Below are positions 7,669 to 35,965 of a stretch of 35,965 nt of DNA, one piece after another. Source of the stretch: a virus; the IMG/VR virus record IMGVR_UViG_3300043543_000234, positions 1 to 35,965 of that record. One strand, 5' to 3'. Under the pieces are notes generated by a model. The model saw only the letters and a list, made by a program, of their open reading frames with translations, did not search any database and was not told where the DNA came from. Made by a program: the position numbers and the translations under genes. Each line of letters begins with the position of its first letter. Positions within the stretch are counted from its first letter, which is position 1.

Positions 7669-7833
7669 ATGGAAAGTACCGACAAGATAGCCGAACTTTT
7701 GGCAGACGCGATCCGTCAAATGAAGATCGTAGTGAGCGACAATCGCACCCATATTCAAATTAGGCAGGGACGGGAGGTTGCACGGATACCGATCGCAGAC
7801 AACAACACCCCGCGGTTGGCTAGGTACCGCTGA
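7669..7833 (+). CDS. 54-residue protein between two tail genes
   Basis: This short gene encodes 54 residues starting MESTDKIAELLADAIRQMKI. It has an N-terminal amphipathic helix, then a strand-forming half (IVVSDNRTHIQIRQGREVAR), and ends basic. A strong AGGAAGGAG ribosome-binding site precedes the ATG by about six bases. Its TGA overlaps the next start as TGATG, which supports a real, coupled gene. No family is recognised. Small genes at this place in a tail operon are often assembly factors or minor virion parts. Confidence 0.65.
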   Translation: MESTDKIAELLADAIRQMKIVVSDNRTHIQIRQGREVARIPIADNNTPRLARYR

Positions 7834-9956
7834 TGTACGCCCAACTAGCTAGCTTCAGGCAGACGTTGCCCGCCCCCTCGATTTCTGCTGTGAGCGGGGG
7901 GTCGCTGTCTGCTGGGACACGGTGGTTTCGCGTTCAGTTCCGCAACCTAGTTGGCCTCAACATAGGGACGGAGCTAGTGTCTTTGTCTTTCTCTGCGGGG
8001 CAGAGGATTCAGTTCTCCTTCCCCGCAAACTACCGCGGCGCGGCGGAAGATGTGCATTTCATCGTGATTAGCGCTGGAACCGCCGCTGTAGCAAGTACCC
8101 TAGTACAGATTGCCAAAATCAAGATACGCAACACGGATGGCACGTATGTGCCGTTCCCGTTGAATTTCTTTTTGTCAACGGATGAACACATCGCCCTAGC
8201 CCCGTCTGTTGCCAACCCAGCGGCGCTACCTAGCGGTGTTGTTAACGGTGCTGTTCGCAGTGTCTCAAGCCTTGGTGCCTTTTACGAGTACCGCGCAGAT
8301 AGTACAGCGACTCCTGATGGAGACACTGTTTTGTCTGCGGGTACGGGGCGGTGGCATCGAATCGAGACCCCCTATACGTTTGTTACAGATACCGTTATGA
8401 ACAACGGGGCAGATCAAGCCCTTAGTGAGATTGCCCCAAACGAGATCGACGTACCGCCGTACCCAGGGGATGGTACCCCTGGTCGCTCAATCAGGGTATG
8501 GTGCCGTAATGGATTTGTGGCTGGGGCGTTCCCCGCGATTGAGCAGGGAATGCGGCTAGGCCTACAGGTATTTGTAGATGGTGTGCCCTATTCCCGTGCA
8601 TTCTCTGGCAAGATGCGGTGCATCTTCAGGGGGTATGCCAACACTATCACGGGGGCGTTGGATAGCTCCCTTGACGGGGTGGGCGTAGAGCGGGTGATTT
8701 ATTTCGGTAAAGGGGATGCGATGGTGCTGCCATCCGATTTACCGCCTGCTTGGGCTGCTGTTTGGGATATTTTCCCCCAATTCAGAGCCAACGAGTTGGA
8801 GGGGTTCCTGGGGCAGAACTCAGTTGTATCGTTTAACATCACCATCTATCCAGTTAGTGCAATAGAGGCTCCATGGGGGTCATTGACTGGTGATTTTGTG
8901 ACAGACGCTGGCGATCGCAGGCGGGTGTATCCAGACACTAGCCAAGCAATAATCACTAGCGGGCAAGTACTGATTGACCAGATGCTCTCACCAGTCAGGG
9001 CTTCCCAACTGCTGCCATTGAGTCCTAACGCCTACCCCCAATACGTCGTCACCAACGGGCAAGGCACAGTATGGCTAACAAATAACACATCAGAGTTATC
9101 AGCCTCTGAGCGTGTTAGGGCGATCTGCGGAACCCAGACAGGGCTAGGGATTCGTTCCGCATGGTCAGATTGGGTTGCTGTTAGTAATAAGGCGTTGGTC
9201 ATAACCATTAACCACCCAGTTACTTCTGCGGGGAACGGGGTGATTAGGCTAGACTATCCAGATGTGGTAGCGGGGAGCGGCAACGGCAAGTTTAACGCTA
9301 CTAATGTAGTTATTTATGTACAGAGGTTGGGTGATGGAGAAATTCGCCGCTGGGTGGTTGCTGCCGATAACGCGCCAACTCAGACAGTCACCATTACTGA
9401 TTTTGGGGGTGTCATGGTACCAACTCTGCCTTCTGACCCTCCTAGTAATTTTGGACTGTTTAGCCCTTTCGGTCTTGACCTATCGCCTAGCTCTGGCGGG
9501 TCTATAAGCGGCTCGTACAGGGTATCGGTAGCGTACGAGTACACAGGGGCGGCGTTAACGGTTATTTCCCACAGGGTAGAGGATGGATGCCTCCCTGAGC
9601 TAGGAGTGCCAATAGCTGAGTTTTCTAGTCACATCGCAAGGATAGACACCATCCAGACACAGGTCACTAGTTTTAGCCAGTTACTAGGCAGGGTCTTAGA
9701 TATTGATGAACTTAGAGGGCTTACTCCTATTGATGGTTGGCGGCGGCTTGTGCTCACCCCTTCCCCCCGCGAGTACTACTACAGCTCTAGCCTGACGCTA
9801 GATGATGACGGCGTAGCTGTCATTAAGCCATCATCAATACCAAGTAGCCAACCTGGCAGATGGCGGCTGATAACAGGGAGCGGCTCTACGGGAAGCCCTG
9901 GTAGTGGAGGGGATGTCTCACTAACCCGTATTATCATTGGGGCGATGTTGGCGTGA
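7833..9956 (+). CDS. Large beta-rich tail protein
   Basis: The product has 707 residues. An N-terminal domain of about 140 residues (LPAPSISAVSGGSLSAGTRW, then FRVQFRNLVGLNIGTELVSL) looks like a fibronectin-III-type fold. Around residues 150-180 a short 'LGAFYEYRADSTATPDGDTV' motif leads into the central domain. A second fibronectin-like region starts near residue 430 (GTQTGLGIRSAWSDWVAVSN). The C-terminus has a Gly/Ser-rich hinge (GSGSTGSPGSGGD) before a short hydrophobic tail. This domain style is common in tail-tip and fibre proteins. The start is TGATG-coupled to the 54-aa gene. No enzymatic motif is visible, and the precise structural role is inferred. Confidence 0.75.
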   Translation: MYAQLASFRQTLPAPSISAVSGGSLSAGTRWFRVQFRNLVGLNIGTELVSLSFSAGQRIQFSFPANYRGAAEDVHFIVISAGTAAVASTLVQIAKIKIRNTDGTYVPFPLNFFLSTDEHIALAPSVANPAALPSGVVNGAVRSVSSLGAFYEYRADSTATPDGDTVLSAGTGRWHRIETPYTFVTDTVMNNGADQALSEIAPNEIDVPPYPGDGTPGRSIRVWCRNGFVAGAFPAIEQGMRLGLQVFVDGVPYSRAFSGKMRCIFRGYANTITGALDSSLDGVGVERVIYFGKGDAMVLPSDLPPAWAAVWDIFPQFRANELEGFLGQNSVVSFNITIYPVSAIEAPWGSLTGDFVTDAGDRRRVYPDTSQAIITSGQVLIDQMLSPVRASQLLPLSPNAYPQYVVTNGQGTVWLTNNTSELSASERVRAICGTQTGLGIRSAWSDWVAVSNKALVITINHPVTSAGNGVIRLDYPDVVAGSGNGKFNATNVVIYVQRLGDGEIRRWVVAADNAPTQTVTITDFGGVMVPTLPSDPPSNFGLFSPFGLDLSPSSGGSISGSYRVSVAYEYTGAALTVISHRVEDGCLPELGVPIAEFSSHIARIDTIQTQVTSFSQLLGRVLDIDELRGLTPIDGWRRLVLTPSPREYYYSSSLTLDDDGVAVIKPSSIPSSQPGRWRLITGSGSTGSPGSGGDVSLTRIIIGAMLA

Positions 9957-23289: not shown

Positions 23290-23979
23290 ATGTCAAAGAG
23301 TTTTATTATCGGGCGGGGGAGCAGCATTAAGTTAGCCCTCCCCGGCCCCGATGCCTCAGTAGAACCAGTAGCCGCAACAGTAACGCTCACCGCAGCGGCC
23401 GCGGCGGGGGCAACATCGCTGTCAGTTAGCGCCCTTCCAACAGGATCGCGCATCCCCGCTGGGAGTTTCCTACAGTTTGTTGATTCGGCAACGGGAAAAG
23501 AAGTAGTTGTACAAGTCACAGCGACTGCTTTGGCTACCGCAACAACCCTTACCGTCGCGGCCATCCCTGAAGCTATCCCCAATGGCTCTACGGCGGCATG
23601 GCCTGTATTGCTGCGAGCTAGGGAAACGGCCAACATCAGCCGCCAAGGAAACCGCGTTACGTCCTTTACGTTTGATAACGACGGATACGAGGACGGCCTC
23701 ACGGCAACTATCACTAATGGCATCACCGCCAACGGTAACTACCTACCGCTAGATGCTGGATACCGCCTAGCAGAGTATGCCTTCCTTGAATTTAAGGAGG
23801 TGTACGCTTGGCTAGAGTTGCCCCCACCATCGGCGGCCTACGCCAAAGGCATGACCTACAAAGGGCGGGCATCGATTACCTCTATCCCGTTGGACATCCC
23901 AGCCGATAATATCGTGAAGGCCAACATTGAGATGGCCTTCAACGGTAAGCCTGTCATTGTACAGCCTGTACCGGTCTAG
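23290..23979 (+). CDS. Major tail tube protein
   Basis: The 229-residue product is beta-rich. Landmarks are MSKSFIIGRGSSIKLALPGP, the centre region 'TSFTFDNDGYEDGLTATITN', 'AGYRLAEYAFLEFKEVYAWL', 'GMTYKGRASITSIPLDIPAD' and 'IVKANIEMAFNGKPV'. The closing 'K.NIE....GKP' strand and a 'GRASITSI..D.P...I' strand are normal for tail tube proteins. It would polymerise around the tape measure into the tail tube. It leads the (+) block with chaperone and tape measure. GGGG sits about nine bases before the ATG. A terminator-like hairpin follows it, which may keep its dose above that of downstream genes. Confidence 0.82.
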   Translation: MSKSFIIGRGSSIKLALPGPDASVEPVAATVTLTAAAAAGATSLSVSALPTGSRIPAGSFLQFVDSATGKEVVVQVTATALATATTLTVAAIPEAIPNGSTAAWPVLLRARETANISRQGNRVTSFTFDNDGYEDGLTATITNGITANGNYLPLDAGYRLAEYAFLEFKEVYAWLELPPPSAAYAKGMTYKGRASITSIPLDIPADNIVKANIEMAFNGKPVIVQPVPV

Positions 23980-24639: not shown

Positions 24640-25232
24640 GGAGGTTCTTCCCAAACGATACACGATTTGATCACGAAAACTTTGGGAATCAGCCGGTGTG
24701 GTTAGTTATGCAGGCGCTTGAATGCGGGGAAAGGTTCTACTACCAAGACATCCACTTTTCAAGTATTGGGTTGTCTATCCTGACCGCGGCGTTCTGCAAT
24801 GCCAACCGAGACCCCAAAGGCAGGGCGTACAGGCCGACCGACTTTCAGCCCTTCAGGGAGGCCTACGAAAGGTTTGAACCGCGGCTAATCCCCGCCCCCG
24901 TATGCAACACGTTCTGGCATCTGGTCAAGACGAACAAGCTGGCAAGTTGGGTTCCCAACGTTGCGCCTATTGACGAGTTGCGGCGCGGTAGGCATGGCGA
25001 CCAACTGTGCGATCCAATGTTTTGGGTGTCACGCGGCGTATGCGCTATTGCCCCGTGCATATCGGGGGATGTGGTGTGTATTGAGCTGTTGATTGTTGAT
25101 GAGGGGGTTAATGGAGTAGTCCACCTGTACGACGGGTTGACGCTAGAGCTGCAAGCATCGATTGAGTTGCCCCCGCAGTCAGGCGCTTATTACGTGCTGG
25201 AGGCAGAGTACCCATGTCTGACGGCACCGTAG
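24585..25232 (+). CDS. Tail assembly chaperone, frameshift extension (gpT-like)
   Basis: This is the C-terminal part reached after the -1 shift: 215 residues beginning IRDEERQSPDWALIFWKLRR and continuing with FFPNDTRFDHENFGNQPVWL. Its frame opens at 24573, just after a TGA, and overlaps the upstream gene through the slippery site. Its sequence before the first GTG (24696) is clearly protein-like, so independent initiation there would discard ~37 plausible residues. The T extension of such chaperones is thought to recruit the tail tube subunits to the tape measure. The last 19 bases overlap the tape measure start. Confidence 0.8.
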   Translation: MRDEERQSPDWALIFWKLRRFFPNDTRFDHENFGNQPVWLVMQALECGERFYYQDIHFSSIGLSILTAAFCNANRDPKGRAYRPTDFQPFREAYERFEPRLIPAPVCNTFWHLVKTNKLASWVPNVAPIDELRRGRHGDQLCDPMFWVSRGVCAIAPCISGDVVCIELLIVDEGVNGVVHLYDGLTLELQASIELPPQSGAYYVLEAEYPCLTAP

Positions 25233-28200
25233 TACTACGCCTAGAACTAGACAGGGAGGCGTTCGATCGCCAACTATCAGGGCTACAGCAGGAGCAGTTG
25301 CAGCCCTTGCGGCAGTCTATCCAAATAGATAGCCGCCGCCTACAGCAACAGTTCGCCCAAATACAGCTACCCCCATTACAGGTGAGGATAGAGGCAGACC
25401 GTCGGAGCATTGGGGCGCTGTCACAGTCCATAAAGCAGGCCACAGCGAACCGCATAGCCAAAATCACCCCCGCGGTAGATCACCGCCCCCTCACAGAACT
25501 TAACAAACACCTAGACCGCAAAATACAGCACGCAAGAGCTGTTAATCGGTACTTTGCAAGCAACCCGCTTACTCCTCGAACCGACGAGAAAGCGCTAGCG
25601 CGGCTGAATCAGCAGCTAAGCGCGGTGCAGCGGCAGATGGGCGCTATCGTCGCTCAACAGGGGCAAGCCAAGCAAGTATCAACAGAAATCAACAAAATAG
25701 TTAACTCATCAAAGGTTCGAGATTTTGGCGGGGCAATACGGGTTGAGAATATTTACCGCGGTCAGTTGTACTCTGACTCCATAGACCGCGGCCTGATGGC
25801 GTTCGCGAAAGAACTGGATGATATGCTGTCACGGCAGCGACGCGGTGGGTTCCTACAGCGAACGTTCGCGATGGGCAAGGGAATCGTGGACTTTGCCCTT
25901 TCCCCAATCAAAGGGATTACAGGGATTGCAAGTCAAATCACAGGGGGGATATTGCAGGCGGTATCGGTTGGGTTGGCAACAACGATCGCCAATGAAGCCG
26001 CAAAAGGTTTAACCCTAGGCACAAAAGAAGAGCTGCAAGCCCTAGCCGCTCAAATAGACAAGTACATACGACGGCGGGGAAGCATCACGGGTGCTGCATT
26101 GGCGGGGTTCTTTGGCTACCCGTCGATGGACGAGCTAAAGAAAGACATAACGTGGTTGGGGCGGTACCTTGACAGTTGGATAGACCCGCAGGGGTTCTCC
26201 CGCAACATGGATCAGGTAGAGTTGCGGCTTGCCAAGTTTGTTGACTTGTTGCGGCGCGGCCAAATATTCGAAGCGTTTGGCGGGGCGATTGAAACGCACA
26301 TTACAAAGCCAATCGCCCAAGACATCGAGCAGATGATGAATCTGGCACAACTCCTGACCAACCCATCCTCTAAGAACGTCAGAAAGTTAATCACACGGCT
26401 AGGGGCGGCCGCCCCCAAAATGTACGAGTATCTGCCAGAAGAGGAAAAGATACGGGCGTTTAACCAAGAAATCAGGTCAACCAAACTAGCAAAAGGGGCA
26501 ACTCAGATCGAGCCTTACTTGGCGTTCTACCGTGCGATTGGCTCAGGCAAACTAGCAAACACCCCCGAACAGAAACTAGCTAGTGAATTTGCGGCGTTCT
26601 TTAACCAACTAAAAGACCCCGCCTTTAGGGCAAAACTAATCGAAGACCCTGTAGTACGGCGCATTACAACGGGGAGCAAAGAGCAACCAGTACTAGAAAA
26701 ACTGGCAGAGCAGGTATTTATTGCCAGCAAATATCAAGAAAAGCTTGGGCTTGGGGTAGATAACGTTGATGACATCGTCAAATACGCAGAAGAGCTTAAA
26801 GACATCGTCAACAAGGCGCAACAACAATTTATCGAAGGGCTACAGGAGCGCAACAAACAACTTGATAGCATCCTATCTGAAGCGTTTGGAGAAACCCCTA
26901 CTGACTTGTTGGCTGACCTAAAAAAGGTCAGGGAATCACGGGGAAAGTCAGTCACAGAAGCAGAGCAACAGCTCATCCAATCCCTTAGCACAGAAGATAT
27001 TCATCGGGCGCGATACCTATCAGCGGCTATTCGCACGCAGACCGCAGACCTTACGCCTGAAGTTATTCAGGCAAATGCAGAATCTGCTATTGCCAGCGTG
27101 CGCAAAGACAAGAAGCTAGACGAGCAAGGCCGCGCCGCGGAAATCGAACGGATTAACCGCCGCACCCAAGCAGAACTAGCGGCGGCTCAATTCCTACGGG
27201 AAAGACAAGCCAACCCCATCTGGCAGATGGAAATAGGCGAATTGGATCGCCTGTTTGTGCGAAACCAAATGGGTAGCGCCGCAGCGGTAAGCAACATTAA
27301 AAACATGCCAGGGATGCAGACCCTGATTGAGCGCTACCAAGCGTTAGCGATGCGGCTTGCCCTTGAGGAAACAGGGGATGGAACAACCCCCGGCTTGCCT
27401 AAGCGGCTACTACGTTTAGCAAGGGCGGGGGCTAACATTGGCGGCGCTCTTACATCCTTTCCTAAACGGTTGCAGTCTGTGGCCAGCGGGCAGATAGCAG
27501 AGCAGATGGCAGAGCAGATGGTATCTGAAATCCCCCGCGGCCAACCAGGGCTGATTTTCACGGTAGGGGGGCGTGAGTTTAAGGGGGGAGAGGGTAGTTA
27601 TGCTTTGGCGCAATACGCCAAGGCAAGCTTTCCCACTGCATATACTATTCCCGTTCCCAACAGTGAGGCTGATTTCCCCGCCAACCCGCAATTGGCACAG
27701 GAGCGGCGCAATCGAGACCCCATACTCAGCTTCCTAACCAAGGTCTTCCCAGACCTAGAAAGCGGGGTTAACCTAGGGAACACGTTGGCCAACGTAACGA
27801 CGCTCTTCTCTAGCGCTACATTCAGCCCTAGGGATAAAGACGCTGAGAAGTTAGCGGCCAACATCTTAGCCGCTATCAAGGCTGGATACTCGCAGGAGCA
27901 AATATCGGCGATGTCGTTCAGCCTAGGCGGAGCTACAGTCCAGAACGCCCTTGCAATCCTTAAAACGTTAGGCGTTGACAAGGTTAAGGGGTTGTCCACC
28001 GCCTACCCATACCTAGGGCTGCAAACACGAGACCTACAGAACTACAAAGCAGGCATCCTAACCCCTGACCCGCTGTCGTTCCCCCTTGTATCGCGGTTGG
28101 TTGAGCCACCCTCGAACGCTGTCTTGATGCAGGCTAGAAGCAATCTACCCACCGCAGACCAGCACTCCCCGCAACACTGGATCGAGTCTCCAGATAGCCC

Positions 28201-31200
28201 CGCTCTACTCAAATGGCTTAACCCGCAGCTATACCGACCAATTAACACCCCTGAGACAGTCTCTGATACCGCCTTTCATGGACACGTTGCCCAAACGATT
28301 TATCGGGGATACTACGGCGGCAAGCTATCGGATGCCCTAAAGCAATTCCTCGAAGGGAAAGACTTGGTAGAGGTTGACGAGCAAGGGGTAAAAAGCCTAC
28401 TTAGCAGTTTCGAGAAGGAAATCGGGAATGACGTACTGCTGAGGGTCTATAAACCCGCTAGTATCTACGCTGAGGTTGCAGACTTTCTCAAGAAAACCCC
28501 CAAAGAGCTAGACATTAGCACCCCTGAAGGTTCCCAGCTTCTACGCTCTATCGCGGGTAGCAGCAACCCGCAGGAGTACGAGCAAATACTATCAGCGATG
28601 GAAACCATCGCCAAAACTCGCAAACAGTTTGAGGCGTACGGGGAATACCTGTATGGCACTGGTGTTACAGGAGTTACCGAACCTGGGCTATTTCCAGAGG
28701 AATACAAGCAACAAGCGACAGAGCTAGTGTCTGCGGTACAGGAAGCAGACCAGCGGTTGCAGGACACACTAGCGAAACTATCCCAAGCATCACAGGCCGC
28801 GCTTGATCCTGATGCAGTGCAGCAGCTAATGCCTGTAGGAGACGTAGAGGCAATAGCAAATCGAATCGAGTCTGCACTATCTGAAGACTTTACTAGGAAC
28901 CTAGTCGAGACGAAAGCGCAACTTAAGGACTACCTCGATTATTTGCGCGCTATCCAATCCGAACTAGAGAAAATCCAAGGCGTTGATCTTACACAACAAA
29001 CCATTGGCGAAATCAACGTTAAGCGGGTAGCGCCTCCAGAAGAGGCAAAATTCCCAACGTTTAACTTTGACATCCCCGAAGAGTGGCAGGCAACACCCGC
29101 TACTCAAGCGATGATGGTGTTTCCGTTCGCCAAGATTGGGGATGAAGCCCGCAAGCTACAGGCCATCCAGAAATCGATGTTAACGGGGGAACCACACCCT
29201 GACAACTGGTTGTATCACCCCGATAATCCAGAGCGAACAAAACGACACCTTGAGTTTGACCTCCCTAGAGCCATTGAATACTTTGAAAGTCGAGTTATTC
29301 GCCCTGAGTATTTCCAAGGGCGGGCTGACTTGTACGAGCAGTCAAAAGAACTGATCACGTTCTACAAGATGCTAGAACGGGAAATCAAAGCAAAACTAGA
29401 AAACCCCAACTATGAGTTCTCGCAACAATTTAGAGAAACGCGCCTGTCTGTACCAGAGTTCCCCTATCCTCTCAAATACCCTGGGGAATCAAACATTGTC
29501 TCGGTTCTAGGGGATATAACCAAAACAAACAAATCGCTAGACCAACTGCTAACTAAGCCCCCCGCAAACATGACGATGTTTGTCGAGCAGGTTAATCTGT
29601 TCGCAGACGCAATCGTAAATGCGGCTAGGTCTGTACAAGAGGCGATCGCTACGGTTGAGTCTAGCCCCATAGCACCGCAGGAAGAGACCCCATCGATAAT
29701 ACAGCCGTTAGTTGAAAAGATACGGCAAGAAGTAGGGAACATAGGGACAAAGGCGCGGCCGCCTGAATCAAACGTGGTGGAGGTTCCGCCTAGCACAGCA
29801 TCGCTGCTTGATGCGATCGCAAGGGAAATAGAGCAACCTAGCAAAGCCAAACCAACCGTTGAGAAGGTAGCGGCTGACATAGAGCCACACACTAAGGGTA
29901 GCGTTGCTCCCCCAATACGAGACACTACCCCTAGCCCTATGCAAGGGGCAATGCAGAATCTGGCGGGTTCAATCGCCGTTGGGTTTAGGGATGGCGCGAT
30001 CGCGGGGATTGAGGCGGCAACGCCTAAAATCGGTCAGATTGCCAAGGTAGTAGGCAAAGAATCCATCGAAGGGATAGCAGCGGTTGCTGAATCCGTCGCT
30101 AATCGCACGGCTGAAGGTAGAGAGGCGTTAATCCAAGGCACAGGGGCGATATTAGGGGAAGGCCTCAACGTTGCGGGCAAACTTGGAGGGGCAACGCTAT
30201 CGGTTGGCGCAAGCGCCTTAAAAGGCGGTACTACATTCTTACTAAACGCGGCACAAGGGGCGGCTCAAGGCGCATCGCAGGTGGCAGTAGGCGCGGTTAG
30301 TTGGCGGGCGGCTCAACTGCGAGGAGCAGACCCGATGGCGCTACCAGGAACAGCAGCACAAGGGGGGATTGCCCGTGATTTACAGACAATCGCCGCGGCA
30401 GACACTGTACAAGCAATCAAGGGGTTAGCGTCTGCTATAAAAGCCATCGCTGGTGGGGTGTCTGGATGGGTCAACAAAGGAAGCAGGGCAAGCAGGCGAA
30501 ATGCTGACCTATGGGATGACGAGCCAGGACAAACAATTGACATTGACTATGAGGTGATGACGGATGAGATCGACAACATAGTTAATGACATCCGCGATGG
30601 GGGAATGAACGTCTCCCAAGAATTGCAGCACCTAGCAGAAACGCTGCATAGGGACGCATCAGAAGGGGTTACAGACGCATCAGCCGCCGCTGTTGCCCTA
30701 GGCGCGATTTCAAAAGAGCTGAAGAGCCTGTTTGAGCAGTTGTCACAGTCAGGGATAGGCCTCCGCGTATCCCAACTGCAGGCCGTGCCATTTGCACCAG
30801 ATGCAACCCTTAGCGCGGAAGACATACAAGGGCTAAGTGAATTAGCGATAGCAGTTAATCTGTTAAACGCGAAAATCGTCGAATCACAGCGGCAGCTAGA
30901 CACCCTAAAACCAATGGCTGAAGACAGAGAGTCTCAGTTCTTGGTAACTGAAATCGAATCATTCCTAGCAGGGCTAAGAAGGCTACGCTCTAACACTATT
31001 GAGGTCTTGCAGCAGTCATGGCCAGCGATGCAACGCGCACAAGCGCAACAGGTAGAGCAAGGCCAAATGGTTGGTGGAGCTGAACGCCCCGCATTAAAAG
31101 GAGACGCTACCGAACAACTCGAAGTAAGGGCGATTCAGCGTCGAGAACTAGAAGGCAAGCCAACCGCTGCAATAGCAGGTACACAGCAGCTATCCTTGCC

Positions 31201-34200
31201 AGCGGGTGAGCAATTATCGCTACCAGCGGGTGAGCAATTATCCCTACCAGCGGGTGAGCAATTATCGCTACCAGCGGGTAAGCAGGACATCCAGACCGCG
31301 GAACCGGTACTAGATGTACCTGCTACAAGCGCTCCAACTACCCCGCCATCGCCGCCCGCCCCTAAGACAGAGCCACCCCCGCCGCAAACAGCGACGGCCG
31401 AAGTAGGCACGCTAGGCGGGGTAGAGCGCAAGCTAGACAGCATCTTGACGCTGTTAGAGCGTACCAACGCGCTATTGTCGCAAATTGCATCAGGCGGGCA
31501 GCCGCCAAGGGGAACATCAGCCCCTGACCCATGGGATGACAGCGACATCGCCCGTGTACCAGTAACATATACAAGCAAATCTGGTCGCAAAGAGACTAGG
31601 CAGTTAGCATTACCGCCGCTCATCCCAAAACGCAAGCGCGAAGGAGAATTAGTCCTCTATCAGCGGCCGCAAGTCCTAGGGGCTATTGGAGAAGGAGTTC
31701 AGCAAGGACTAGCAGACGTAGCCCCGAGCCTCAAACAGGCAACGCAAACCGCAGGAAAAGCGCTGACATCAGGAGTGGCATCGGTTGTCAGCAGCGGCAT
31801 TAGCGTAGGCGGGCAAGCGGTCGGTGGCTTAGGGAAAGCGGCAGGGGCTACGGTTGAGGGAACATTTGCCGTACTCTCAGGGGCAATTAGCGGGGTTGGT
31901 GAGGCCATATCCGATGCGATCGAACAGCGGGCATCCTCACTCTCAGGAGAAGGAACGGCCGCGGCAGAAGGAGTATCGAATCAGTTAGAGCGGCTTAAGA
32001 AAATCGCCGCCAATGACACCCAGAAAACGGTAGAGTTTGTCGCTAGTTCCGCAAAAACTCTTCTAGGGGCGATTGGGGCGATCGGCGAAAAGATTAAAGG
32101 CTCACAAGAAGCAGTGCAAGCAGAGGCAAGCCAAGATATTCCCCCTGAAGCGCTGCGCAACGAGCTAGAGGAGATGGCGAAAGAGTTAGCCACAGTCAGG
32201 GAAAGGCTACGTGTTGAGCTAACTAAACTTCTGCGAAGCGCCCTAACAGGCCAACTACCAGAGGATGACTTAGCCAGCGTTATTGACGATGTCTTGTCCT
32301 CTAAGGGCAACAAAATCAGCAAGCCAGCAAAGAACAAACTAAGGGCGGCACCATTAAACAATCCAGAAGTAGGGCAATTAGCGGGGGTGCTTAGCGCGGA
32401 TGACCTCATCCAAGCAGCACAGCTCAAATCAGCAAAACTCCAAATACGAGCAGCAGATACACCAGAAGGATTAATTCCCGATAGAACCGCGTTATTGGGG
32501 CGCATTGGAGAAGAGAAACAAGAGCTAGGAAAGCTAAGGTCTAAAGCCTTTGAAATCATCCGTGAGCTTGCGCCTACCATTAGGGAAATGGCAGATGCTG
32601 GCTCTGATGCAGCGCTAGGGTTCAAGTCTGGATTCGAGAGCAAATTTAAGGAGATACCCCCAACCGCTTCCCAGAAGGTCAAAAAGTTAATCGCCGACAT
32701 CAAAGACATACTAGGGATTGCCTCTCCATCCCGTGTATTCGCCGAAATCGGGCAAATGATCGTCGCTGGCTTGGCCTTGGGGATGGATGCAAGCAAAGTA
32801 CAGCAACTAGGGCGCAACCTAGCCCTATCCTTGCTTGATGCCTACTCCGCAGAAGCCAATAAGCCACAGCAGCTAGACCAGTTACCAGAGGTTAGGAGTA
32901 GCAGCATCCCCGATGCCATGGACCCAATCAAGATAAGCGATATTTTTGCAGGGCTAGATCAGGAGTCATTCGAGAACCTAGGGATTGAACAAGCAGACGA
33001 ATACATCCGCGCATGGAAGCAATCCCTAGAAATTGCATCCCCGTCGCGCGTATTTACCAGAATCGGTGAAGCTATCAGGGACGGCTTAAAACAAGGAGTT
33101 GATGGTGGAGAGGTTGGGGCTGAAATTGGAGAAAGCGTTGCCAAAGGGGCGCAAAAGGGAACGCAGAGGTTCGAATGGATAATCGATAAACTGCGTGGGA
33201 TGGGTTGGGGCGGCAAATTGGCCGCCGACGGGCTAATTTTGGCTCGTAACGCGCTAGTTAGTCTGTTCGCGGGGCATGTAATCTTTGAGAACGCCCAGCG
33301 ACTAATCGGTTGGCTAAGGGAGGCCTACCGCGTTGCGGTTGAGTTTGAGCGGGTTAAGGTCGGGTTAAGGTTCACGCTAGGCGCAGAGACTGAACGAGCG
33401 AATAAATTCCTGAAGGAACAAAGCCTCCAAACAGGGACACCGTTAATGGAGGGTATGTCTAGCTATTTAGGGTTGGCGGCGGTTACCCGTAATACAGCCA
33501 TCAAAGAGGCAGACAGAGAGGAAATCTATAAAGCAGTTGCAGAAGCAAGCGCTGTTTTTGGTCTCGATCGCCAACGTACACAGCTCGCGTTTACAGCGTT
33601 AACCCAAATACTTAGCAAAGGTAGGGTTTCCGCAGAAGAGCTACGGCAACAGTTAGCCGAACACCTCCCAGGGGCATTTCAAGTTGCTGCACGGGCAATG
33701 GGGGTCACAGAGCAGCAGCTCAACGAAATGCTCCAACGTGGAGAAGTCCTATCTAGTACATTCGTTCCCCGATTCGCCCGCCAACTGCGGGTAGAAATGG
33801 CGGGGTCGTTGCATCTAGTAGATGAGTCATCGCAGGCGGTATTAAACCGTCTCGAAAACGCGCAACTGCAACTGCAAGAAGGGGTAGGTAGCGCATTGTC
33901 TCCAGTAGCTAATACAGCAATGCGCGGGATGGCAACAGGGCTAGAAGTAATTAACAGCAACCTTGCATTAGCGGGGACAATCGCAGGGGGTGCAGTGCTT
34001 TCAGCCTTCACTCGCTTACTGCAGCTAATGCGAGACTTTTTGCCTGACATTGCAGATAGGGTCTGGTCTGTCGCGAAAGGGTTAATCTCTTGGCGGGATA
34101 TGTTCGCAGCAGTTGCCAAGTCTGCGGTCAGGGTGGGGGCATGGGTTGCGCTGTTTAGTAGTGCTCTTTCCGCAGGTAAAGTCCTATCAACGATGGGCGG

Positions 34201-35965
34201 CGACGAGATAACAGGCCAACTCCGATCTGGCATCAAATGGATGGAGCAAAACCGCGGCCAACCATTGCCAAACCTTCCAGACAAGAAAAGTTCAGCTTTT
34301 GACCTCATACTGCGGGTAATTAAGCCTAGCTTTTTGGGCTTGGAAGCCGCCATAGAACCTGTTGTAGATATGTTTAACCGACTATCTGCAACAATCCGTG
34401 ATGTTGATATTGAGATTAAGCGTAGGTTAAATAGCGCAAAGGATGCGCTGTTGTCTGCGGGTAGCTCGTTACTGCAACTAGACGTAACAACTGCAATAAG
34501 AGAGTTCCGCGGTGTTACGTCTAGTTTGTGGGGGAATGCAGATAGTAGGTTTGGAGAAGACGGCCTAGCAGCGCAGGTTGCCCGTAATCCGATGCTGTTT
34601 GCGATGCCCGCAGTAGGAATTGCCGCCTCACTTATCGATACTGCTACAGGCAGAGCGCCTACAATCCGACAAGAGGCCAACCGCGCCAACGAGATCGCCT
34701 TAGCTGAATGGAACGACAAGATTAGGGCGGAAACAGACGCGCTAATGGAAACCATCGCCCTAAAACGAGCAGGCGCAACAAGACCAAAAGAAGAAGAGAT
34801 TAAAGCAGCTCAACAACTACTGGATTCAGGCAGAGGAACCGCCGCTGAACGGGAACAAGCAATTAGAACCCTACGAACCGCCAACCTGCTAGACCCAGAC
34901 GAAATCAACAAGAGGGGGGCTGCCCTGATGGCCTTGGCTGAAGCACAGGAGCGCCTAGCCGCCGCGGCAGAGGCTGAAGGGGACATAGACCGCGCCCGTA
35001 TGCACAGAACAGATGCTGAGAACCTCAGAAAGATCGCGGCCGCGGCAAACTCTGCGGCAGCGGGGATGACTAAGTTCTTGGATGCAGTAAAAAGCCTAGA
35101 ACTGGTCTTGCTGCGGTTAGACACAGAGCAACTACGCCGTCAACTCGCAGTTGTAACGGCACTGAATGAAGGGAGCATTAACGAGTTTGGGTACAACGAA
35201 GGGTTGATCCGTTCGCAGGAGATATTACTGGAAAGCAGAATCGCCGAACAGCAAAAGAATCTAGACGAGTTGCGCCGCTTCATGGCAACAGAAGAATACA
35301 AGACAATGCAAGACCAGCAAGCCAAGGACGAGATGGAAGAGCGCGCCTTGCGAATGGAGCAGTCAATAATGCAAGACCAGATACGGCTCCAAGAGCTAAA
35401 AAATGAGCGCATACAGCAAGAAATACAACTACTAGAGAAACTGTTTGGCTACCGCCGCAACCAGATCGCACTAGAGGCAACAGTAAGCCGCCTTACCGTT
35501 GAACGTAACCGCGCTAGTGGGAAGCTGTCAGGGGAAGAATACATACTACAAAGCGCCAAAGCGGAAAGCGATCGCATTGCGGCGGAAATAGCAGCAACCC
35601 GTATCATGATTGAGGAGTACAAAAAACAGCTAGATAAAACCAAAAACCCCGCCCTACGAGGGGAAATAAGCGACAAAATAGTACAGTCTCAAACACAATT
35701 AGCAAACCTTGAACTAGAGCAACTAAACGCCTCAATTGAAAGAAGCATTAAGCTGATCGAGTTCCGAACAGAACAACGCCGCCGTGAAGTAGAACTAGCC
35801 CAAGAAGAGCTGCAAATAACAGAGAAAATTAACAACGTCATAAATGACATAGTCTCTTCATCTAGAGAACTAACTGAATCGCGGCGGCAATTTGTAACTA
35901 CAGGGTTAAGGGCAATCTTAGAGGCCAACAACACAGGCAACCCTAACGTTCAGCTCAACGAACGA
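25214..35965 (+). CDS. Giant tape measure protein with embedded lipase-like domain (partial, runs off the right edge)
   Basis: From ATG 25214 (GGAGG ten bases upstream) the frame stays open for 3584 codons to the window end. N-terminal ~120 residues are Gln/Leu/Arg-rich coiled coil. Residues about 780-1000 look like an alpha/beta hydrolase: strand GLIFTVGGREFKGG, nucleophile S903 in AMSFSLGGATV, D952 in LTPDPLSFP, and H984 or H988 in DQHSPQHW. An LSLPAGEQ repeat lies at 1993-2024. Two SPSRVF motifs (residues 2504 and 2609) and the segment about 2712-2856 (EQSLQTGTPLMEGMSSYLGL, then AAVTRNTA) are recognised tape measure elements. Hydrophobic helices occur near 2917-2940 and 2965-2992, then coiled coil to the edge. 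It sets tail length and probably enters the envelope on infection. The hydrolase call is by motif only. Confidence 0.88.
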   Translation, partial: MSDGTVVLRLELDREAFDRQLSGLQQEQLQPLRQSIQIDSRRLQQQFAQIQLPPLQVRIEADRRSIGALSQSIKQATANRIAKITPAVDHRPLTELNKHLDRKIQHARAVNRYFASNPLTPRTDEKALARLNQQLSAVQRQMGAIVAQQGQAKQVSTEINKIVNSSKVRDFGGAIRVENIYRGQLYSDSIDRGLMAFAKELDDMLSRQRRGGFLQRTFAMGKGIVDFALSPIKGITGIASQITGGILQAVSVGLATTIANEAAKGLTLGTKEELQALAAQIDKYIRRRGSITGAALAGFFGYPSMDELKKDITWLGRYLDSWIDPQGFSRNMDQVELRLAKFVDLLRRGQIFEAFGGAIETHITKPIAQDIEQMMNLAQLLTNPSSKNVRKLITRLGAAAPKMYEYLPEEEKIRAFNQEIRSTKLAKGATQIEPYLAFYRAIGSGKLANTPEQKLASEFAAFFNQLKDPAFRAKLIEDPVVRRITTGSKEQPVLEKLAEQVFIASKYQEKLGLGVDNVDDIVKYAEELKDIVNKAQQQFIEGLQERNKQLDSILSEAFGETPTDLLADLKKVRESRGKSVTEAEQQLIQSLSTEDIHRARYLSAAIRTQTADLTPEVIQANAESAIASVRKDKKLDEQGRAAEIERINRRTQAELAAAQFLRERQANPIWQMEIGELDRLFVRNQMGSAAAVSNIKNMPGMQTLIERYQALAMRLALEETGDGTTPGLPKRLLRLARAGANIGGALTSFPKRLQSVASGQIAEQMAEQMVSEIPRGQPGLIFTVGGREFKGGEGSYALAQYAKASFPTAYTIPVPNSEADFPANPQLAQERRNRDPILSFLTKVFPDLESGVNLGNTLANVTTLFSSATFSPRDKDAEKLAANILAAIKAGYSQEQISAMSFSLGGATVQNALAILKTLGVDKVKGLSTAYPYLGLQTRDLQNYKAGILTPDPLSFPLVSRLVEPPSNAVLMQARSNLPTADQHSPQHWIESPDSPALLKWLNPQLYRPINTPETVSDTAFHGHVAQTIYRGYYGGKLSDALKQFLEGKDLVEVDEQGVKSLLSSFEKEIGNDVLLRVYKPASIYAEVADFLKKTPKELDISTPEGSQLLRSIAGSSNPQEYEQILSAMETIAKTRKQFEAYGEYLYGTGVTGVTEPGLFPEEYKQQATELVSAVQEADQRLQDTLAKLSQASQAALDPDAVQQLMPVGDVEAIANRIESALSEDFTRNLVETKAQLKDYLDYLRAIQSELEKIQGVDLTQQTIGEINVKRVAPPEEAKFPTFNFDIPEEWQATPATQAMMVFPFAKIGDEARKLQAIQKSMLTGEPHPDNWLYHPDNPERTKRHLEFDLPRAIEYFESRVIRPEYFQGRADLYEQSKELITFYKMLEREIKAKLENPNYEFSQQFRETRLSVPEFPYPLKYPGESNIVSVLGDITKTNKSLDQLLTKPPANMTMFVEQVNLFADAIVNAARSVQEAIATVESSPIAPQEETPSIIQPLVEKIRQEVGNIGTKARPPESNVVEVPPSTASLLDAIAREIEQPSKAKPTVEKVAADIEPHTKGSVAPPIRDTTPSPMQGAMQNLAGSIAVGFRDGAIAGIEAATPKIGQIAKVVGKESIEGIAAVAESVANRTAEGREALIQGTGAILGEGLNVAGKLGGATLSVGASALKGGTTFLLNAAQGAAQGASQVAVGAVSWRAAQLRGADPMALPGTAAQGGIARDLQTIAAADTVQAIKGLASAIKAIAGGVSGWVNKGSRASRRNADLWDDEPGQTIDIDYEVMTDEIDNIVNDIRDGGMNVSQELQHLAETLHRDASEGVTDASAAAVALGAISKELKSLFEQLSQSGIGLRVSQLQAVPFAPDATLSAEDIQGLSELAIAVNLLNAKIVESQRQLDTLKPMAEDRESQFLVTEIESFLAGLRRLRSNTIEVLQQSWPAMQRAQAQQVEQGQMVGGAERPALKGDATEQLEVRAIQRRELEGKPTAAIAGTQQLSLPAGEQLSLPAGEQLSLPAGEQLSLPAGKQDIQTAEPVLDVPATSAPTTPPSPPAPKTEPPPPQTATAEVGTLGGVERKLDSILTLLERTNALLSQIASGGQPPRGTSAPDPWDDSDIARVPVTYTSKSGRKETRQLALPPLIPKRKREGELVLYQRPQVLGAIGEGVQQGLADVAPSLKQATQTAGKALTSGVASVVSSGISVGGQAVGGLGKAAGATVEGTFAVLSGAISGVGEAISDAIEQRASSLSGEGTAAAEGVSNQLERLKKIAANDTQKTVEFVASSAKTLLGAIGAIGEKIKGSQEAVQAEASQDIPPEALRNELEEMAKELATVRERLRVELTKLLRSALTGQLPEDDLASVIDDVLSSKGNKISKPAKNKLRAAPLNNPEVGQLAGVLSADDLIQAAQLKSAKLQIRAADTPEGLIPDRTALLGRIGEEKQELGKLRSKAFEIIRELAPTIREMADAGSDAALGFKSGFESKFKEIPPTASQKVKKLIADIKDILGIASPSRVFAEIGQMIVAGLALGMDASKVQQLGRNLALSLLDAYSAEANKPQQLDQLPEVRSSSIPDAMDPIKISDIFAGLDQESFENLGIEQADEYIRAWKQSLEIASPSRVFTRIGEAIRDGLKQGVDGGEVGAEIGESVAKGAQKGTQRFEWIIDKLRGMGWGGKLAADGLILARNALVSLFAGHVIFENAQRLIGWLREAYRVAVEFERVKVGLRFTLGAETERANKFLKEQSLQTGTPLMEGMSSYLGLAAVTRNTAIKEADREEIYKAVAEASAVFGLDRQRTQLAFTALTQILSKGRVSAEELRQQLAEHLPGAFQVAARAMGVTEQQLNEMLQRGEVLSSTFVPRFARQLRVEMAGSLHLVDESSQAVLNRLENAQLQLQEGVGSALSPVANTAMRGMATGLEVINSNLALAGTIAGGAVLSAFTRLLQLMRDFLPDIADRVWSVAKGLISWRDMFAAVAKSAVRVGAWVALFSSALSAGKVLSTMGGDEITGQLRSGIKWMEQNRGQPLPNLPDKKSSAFDLILRVIKPSFLGLEAAIEPVVDMFNRLSATIRDVDIEIKRRLNSAKDALLSAGSSLLQLDVTTAIREFRGVTSSLWGNADSRFGEDGLAAQVARNPMLFAMPAVGIAASLIDTATGRAPTIRQEANRANEIALAEWNDKIRAETDALMETIALKRAGATRPKEEEIKAAQQLLDSGRGTAAEREQAIRTLRTANLLDPDEINKRGAALMALAEAQERLAAAAEAEGDIDRARMHRTDAENLRKIAAAANSAAAGMTKFLDAVKSLELVLLRLDTEQLRRQLAVVTALNEGSINEFGYNEGLIRSQEILLESRIAEQQKNLDELRRFMATEEYKTMQDQQAKDEMEERALRMEQSIMQDQIRLQELKNERIQQEIQLLEKLFGYRRNQIALEATVSRLTVERNRASGKLSGEEYILQSAKAESDRIAAEIAATRIMIEEYKKQLDKTKNPALRGEISDKIVQSQTQLANLELEQLNASIERSIKLIEFRTEQRRREVELAQEELQITEKINNVINDIVSSSRELTESRRQFVTTGLRAILEANNTGNPNVQLNER
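31190..31285 (+). repeat. Four 24-bp tandem repeats in the tape measure gene
   Basis: Four head-to-tail units encode LSLPAGEQ (the last reads LSLPAGKQ). The units differ at single bases, mostly silent (TCC/TCG, TTG/CTA). They lie in a Pro-rich linker between helical parts of the tape measure protein and may vary in number among related phages. Confidence 0.9.

Follow-up and report, generated by a model that had tools for sequence, protein, structure and literature searches.

Enzyme domains embedded in tape measure proteins (TMPs) are known from mycobacteriophage TM4 and from SPbeta, in which they are peptidoglycan hydrolases. The viral locus described here likewise places an enzyme-type domain within a TMP, but the TM4 and SPbeta domains have other folds and act on peptidoglycan, whereas the present domain is predicted to be a lipase-type serine hydrolase. 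A closer match in fold is the mycobacteriophage LysB, a phage-coded, cutinase-like alpha/beta-hydrolase with Ser, Asp and His as its catalytic residues (PMC6116114). However, LysB is a separate enzyme of the lysis cassette that acts when the phage leaves the cell, while the domain considered here is internal to the TMP frame. In the MuF polymorphic toxins and polyvalent proteins, enzyme modules are attached to virion proteins and their delivery into the host has been proposed (PMC5576092, PMC5512222). A term search of the texts of these two papers returned neither a lipase nor a tape-measure case, and no precedent was found among the open-access papers listed for tape measure proteins with lipase, esterase, cutinase or phospholipase.

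The tape measure frame and its N-terminal extension

The stretch of DNA that was analysed is the 35,965-base virus record IMGVR_UViG_3300043543_000234, a single metagenomic record, and we will use the term "window" for its whole length. The features discussed below are the following:

23290..23979, + strand: major tail protein homologue, two genes upstream of the TMP (PHROG 1407)
25214..35965, + strand: TMP frame of 3,584 codons, stop-free and running past the 3' end of the contig
25214..33013, + strand: extension of ~2,600 residues N-terminal to the ordinary TMP core (approximate boundary, placed by BLASTP)
27446..28243, + strand: predicted alpha/beta-hydrolase domain, residues 745-1010 (DUF676 match, family profile, AlphaFold2 model, VIA-align)
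27551..27571, + strand: LIFTVGG, residues 780-786, first predicted strand and Gly pair; probable oxyanion-hole loop
27914..27931, + strand: SFSLGG, residues 901-906, predicted nucleophile elbow with Ser903 at 27920-27922, aligned to GHSAGG/GYSAGG of the relatives
28067..28069, + strand: Asp952, predicted catalytic acid (model position and alignment column)
28163..28165, + strand: His984, predicted catalytic base, in the alignment column of the His that most relatives keep
33323..33874, + strand: TMP_3 core domain (PF20155), residues 2704-2887 (69.7 bits against a cut-off of 41, E 3.5e-19)

Judged by its core domain and its tail-gene neighbourhood, the 25214-35965 frame is a TMP. It matches ten PHROG families described as tail length tape measure protein, and TIGR02675 matches residues 2777-2848 with a score of 57.7 against a cut-off of 21.35. 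The major tail protein encoded upstream is 47% identical over 232 residues (BLASTP) to its counterpart in L013, a related viral contig. The core region of the window TMP begins near residue 2,660. By BLASTP, the same core is found at residues 89-346 in the TMP of BcepGomr, at 117-300 in that of yong1 and at 254-480 in that of L013, and in ordinary TMPs it lies inside the first few hundred residues. Since the core follows only after ~2,600 residues here, the hydrolase domain is located in a giant N-terminal extension. This extension also contains four near-identical seven-residue repeats, SLPAGEQ/SLPAGKQ, at residues 1994-2021 (window 31193-31276).

Two window proteins have homologues in Nodularia and Planktothrix phages, and for one of them a homologue is also present in an Aphanizomenon phage. 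A cyanobacterial host is therefore likely. The domain itself was not found in bacterial host genomes in two genome scans.

Sequence evidence and predicted fold of the domain

The domain was noticed in a preliminary description of the window, which placed a class-3-lipase-like alpha/beta-hydrolase domain inside the TMP from the order of a few motifs. Translation of the frame confirms these motifs and their positions: LIFTVGG at residue 780 (27551), SFSLGGATV at 901 (27914), TPDPLSFP at 950 (28061) and DQHSPQHW at 982 (28157), with Ser, Asp, His and His at residues 903, 952, 984 and 988. The order of the motifs by itself has been dropped as an argument for a hydrolase because a loose S...DP...H pattern is too frequent in shuffled sequences. 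It occurs in 22 of 1,000 sequences (2.2%) when the whole TMP is shuffled and in 30 of 5,000 when the 280-residue region that holds the domain is.

Better evidence comes from profiles. The Pfam family DUF676 (PF05057, putative serine esterase) matches the isolated 280 residues with 21.0 bits (E 2.6e-4), just above its gathering score of 20.3, but the full-length frame scores 16.6, which is below it. A profile of 12 family members, built without the window sequence, gives the window TMP 45.9 bits (E 5.3e-13), while the best of 2,000 shuffles reaches 9.3. In a pairwise BLASTP comparison, the window TMP matches gp048 of Aphanizomenon phage vB_AphaS-CL131 over residues 726-936 with an E-value of 3e-7. 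The domain is divergent, being 17-23% identical to its relatives. Used alone as a direct query, its sequence had no convincing match among viral contigs, genome contigs, phages or plasmids, and nothing meaningful among the sequences of solved structures. PHROGs has no family for it, and NCBIfam has none for the window domain, for the relative L011_1 or for that of L013, apart from one Pks13 thioesterase match below the cut-off.

The class-3 lipase label is not the best one for this domain. Lipase_3 (PF01764) does not match the window domain in the profile search, and by fold the domain is closest to cutinases and minimal lipases. No match to Cutinase (PF01083) is listed for the window domain either; two relatives, P0007 and that of L022, score 32.0 and 29.9 bits against the cut-off of 25.9. 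Taken together, the relatives exceed the gathering scores of DUF676, Cutinase, Lipase_3 and DUF900, with Lipase_3 matched above its cut-off by relatives in CL131, L011 and L022.

Residues 745-1015 of the window TMP and 11 relatives were used as the AlphaFold2 input. The resulting model of the window domain (mean pLDDT 76.8, pTM 0.79) has the element order of a compact alpha/beta-hydrolase, with the hydrolase sheet present in the prediction; structure prediction and a fold search had been proposed in the preliminary description. Foldseek against the PDB retrieves acyl-protein thioesterases, carboxylesterases, cutinase, PETases and CALB with probabilities near 1, at modest E-values (best 2.3e-3, probability 1.00). 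In VIA-align, every row among the matches listed is a hydrolase of the alpha/beta fold, and the top rows are cutinases and lipase A with Z-scores of 12-13 over 153-166 residues, including 13.0 for cutinase 5x88 (164 residues, 3.2 Å) and 12.3 for Bacillus lipase A. A canonical relative from the contig L014 was modelled with a pLDDT of 86.2 and a pTM of 0.86, and reaches a Z-score of 14.6 against a lipase and of 14.2 against lipase A. When viral models were searched by fold, the deposited protein A0A7G9A4H1 ("Tape measure domain protein [Bacteriophage sp.]", BFVD) matched both models, with E-values of 7.7e-8 and 3.0e-9. The likeness of this TMP to the window domain is one of predicted structure. 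The preliminary description knew of no lipase-type TMP domain; this agrees with the open-access text searched, but not with deposited models, in which a TMP of matching fold is present.

The predicted catalytic residues occupy the expected places in the model. Ser903 (model residue 159) lies between the strand 153-158 and the helix 161-174, Asp952 (model residue 208) just past the strand 200-205, and His984 (model residue 240) in a loop after the last strand and ahead of the helix 242-247. The modelled elbow S901-F-S903-L-G905 fits the small-x-Ser-x-Gly pattern between a strand and a helix. In an alignment of 14 family sequences, the Asp is present in 14 of 14, the Ser in 13 of 14 and the His in most; the family consensus at the LIFTVGG site is FVVGGF. 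Ser903, Asp952 and His984 can thus be regarded as the predicted catalytic triad, in the right order and in the right topological places. His984 and His988 had both been suggested as the triad His; the family alignment retains His984, which is conserved, and not His988.

Most relatives in CL131 and the IMG/VR contigs have the canonical elbow G-H/Y-S-A-G-G, whereas that of the window is S-F-S-L-G-G. The Ser at the first elbow position had been read as a possible sign of degeneration. It is not a good sign of decay, since the relative at L014:18028-18834 also has Ser there (SHSVGG). Bacillus lipase A has Ala and CALB has Thr at this position. With the family profile, the predicted fold and the placement of the triad in agreement, the proposal of an alpha/beta-hydrolase domain inside the TMP is well supported. 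By sequence and model, TMP residues ~745-1010 appear to form a real lipase/esterase-type domain whose predicted catalysis is probably active.

Relatives of the domain and their carriers

The relatives were reached through the neighbourhood of CL131, which carries a homologue of the window protein 7833-9956. Scans of viral contigs with the CL131 domains gave the IMG/VR contigs L011, L013-L016 and L022. One of these scans used an alignment that included the window, and its matches were confirmed by tblastn with an L011 sequence. The homologous modules of CL131 gp047/gp048, L011, L013, L014 and L022 have the same motif order and are likewise coded among virion structural genes. However, they are part of separate multi-hydrolase or Mu F-fused proteins, while the window module is inside the TMP.

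In CL131, four hydrolase domains are found in gp047 and gp048, the two genes before the TMP gene, and large multi-hydrolase proteins directly precede the TMP gene in three records (CL131, L011 and L014). In L013, the only domain match of the whole record is in P0010, where the hydrolase (residues ~367-599) is fused to Phage_Mu_F (PF04233, E 1.5e-9). The gene for this fusion is upstream of the major tail protein and TMP genes, and the L013 TMP is without the domain. The same Mu F-hydrolase arrangement is seen in broken frames in L015 and L016, in which the gene is split by frame breaks (L015:9577-10627 and L016:8825-10703) that reflect either real decay or assembly error. The L022 carrier has two hydrolase domains, and its gene comes after a Mu F gene, with virion morphogenesis genes on one side and capsid genes on the other. 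Unlike the L013 protein, the window TMP is without a detectable Mu F domain, and Phage_Mu_F (PF04233) is absent from the window record, which is a fragment.

The window TMP is the only TMP containing the domain among the loci examined. The domain is absent from the giant TMPs of Nodularia phage 2AV2, CrV-01T and Cr-LKS4 and from the TMPs of PaV-LD and Microcystis phage yong1. In two Cylindrospermopsis phages, stand-alone 200-residue "class 3 lipase" genes (L023:11737-12339 and L024:8737-9339) are close to giant TMP genes. They were rejected as relatives, as their similarity to the family is limited to 46 residues around the elbow and they are small genes separate from that of the TMP.

The relatives are under purifying selection, with dN/dS values of 0.02-0.17. 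The third hydrolase copy (CL131 gp048 residues 1475-1760 and L011_5, L011:13532-14389) has Gly in place of the nucleophile (AHGYGG), and it is the most conserved, at 0.02 against 0.07-0.17 for the other pairs. The copy at L014:18028-18834 is without the triad His. Judging from these sequences, not every copy of the family can be a classical enzyme; the window copy keeps all three residues. The sequence comparisons place the window domain in a divergent hydrolase family in phages related to cyanophages, and the Mu F fusion, the multi-hydrolase proteins and the TMP placement together suggest that the module moves between virion-protein carriers.

Other domains were observed around the hydrolase genes. 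DnaJ J-domains (PF00226, above cut-off) are present with or near the hydrolase modules and before the TMP gene in L011 (P0008, residues 854-909) and L014 (P0011, residues 1491-1549, and L014:890-1780). A repeated Cys motif, CKxGKxCGxxCIPKxxKC, is found near the start of the hydrolase modules or between them in the carriers of L011, L014, L022 and CL131. In L022, the proteins encoded immediately ahead of the Mu F and hydrolase genes (L022:79-1485 and L022:1482-2996) have sub-threshold matches to PI3/PI4-kinase and HipA-like kinase. These kinase-like proteins are another possible virion cargo.

Possible role and delivery

From the computed homology, fold, triad placement, TMP context and carriers, we infer the catalytic activity, virion presence, delivery and substrate of the domain. 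In the main reading, to which we give a probability of roughly 65%, it is a virion-carried serine esterase/lipase, belonging to a family of virion-associated modules, that is expelled with the TMP and cuts host ester bonds. During tail assembly the domain would be built in with the very long N-terminal extension to which it belongs, and it would be expelled with the TMP when the tail opens. It had been suggested that the domain exits first through the tail. This now seems wrong, as the domain falls within the N-terminal quarter, and in the siphophage 80alpha it is the C-terminus of the TMP that sits in the tail tip (PMC7048315), so that an N-terminal domain would trail. It would emerge only once the C-terminal part of the TMP has left the tail, further into the envelope or inside the cell. 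There, it would cut ester bonds of membrane lipids or acyl/acetyl esters of the envelope, helping infection, with thioester hydrolysis as an alternative reaction. One point against this reading is that the tail tube of a siphophage has a narrow lumen, perhaps too narrow for a folded domain of such size; the divergence of the window domain and the end of the contig inside the TMP also count against it.

The carriers of the relatives bear on this reading. The presence of the module on Mu F and TMP proteins is consistent with an enzyme borne by the virion. The enzyme fusions of Mu F proteins, which are head proteins, are regarded as effectors that the phage delivers to its host (PMC5512222), and the head-protein and other carriers in related phages favour a delivered enzyme. 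More tentatively, the window domain may be a TMP-borne hydrolase of membrane lipids, and the module a swappable serine-hydrolase cargo, carried on a Mu F head protein, on stand-alone TMP-adjacent proteins or on the TMP, and delivered to cut host lipids or acyl esters at entry.

Action from outside the cell is an unlikely alternative, in which the domain would open an outer lipid or acylated-polysaccharide barrier before DNA passage, as tail-tip esterases do; the preliminary description had proposed such a barrier-opening role. The TMP leaves the tail ahead of the DNA, and the nearest folds of the domain are lid-less cutinases. The tail tip of 80alpha also has a hydrolase domain of the GDSL/SGNH type, whose presumed target is the cell wall (PMC7048315). 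However, TMP C-termini are at the tip while the domain is in the N-terminal quarter, and a Mu F-type head protein, on which relatives have the domain, would be a poor site for outside action. Somewhat less probable still is a catalytically dead or structural domain, with the fold retained to bind lipid or another virion protein. That a fold of this family can be kept for a non-catalytic role is indicated by the Gly-nucleophile copy of CL131 and L011, which is conserved at a dN/dS of 0.02, and this speaks against the main reading; the missing His in L014:18028-18834 and the SFSLG elbow of the window point the same way. Against a dead domain, the Ser, Asp and His of the window are all in register, and activity tolerates a small non-Gly residue in the first position of the elbow, as in lipase A and CALB.

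Cleavage of the extension from the TMP during assembly is a more serious alternative, although we consider it doubtful as well; the hydrolase would then be a separate virion protein or a morphogenesis factor that shares the frame. The hydrolase protein and the TMP are indeed encoded by separate neighbouring genes in L011, L014 and CL131, and 3,584 uncut residues at 1.5 Å per residue would span ~540 nm, against ~150 nm for the core alone. On the other hand, long TMPs without the domain exist, such as that of 2AV2 with 3,404 residues. An artefact, in which a chimeric contig or a frame fusion joins an unrelated hydrolase gene to the TMP, is very improbable. The window is one metagenomic record and has the sole domain-bearing TMP among these loci, but the single frame is open for more than 3,500 codons with an even composition along its length (GC 0.50-0.55), and the independently deposited TMP A0A7G9A4H1 has the same fold.

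TMP enzymes that cut peptidoglycan and Mu F enzymes as putative injected effectors are already known; what is new is a lipase-type hydrolase family common to Mu F, TMP and other virion carriers. Such a hydrolase, common to TMP and Mu F carriers, would link both enzyme classes. Since the family is attached to other virion proteins in related viruses, the sequences suggest that related phages carry a fat- or ester-cutting enzyme into the host. A hydrolase of this kind would also be a testable candidate for how phages handle lipid or acylated barriers, or host lipids, in cyanobacteria.
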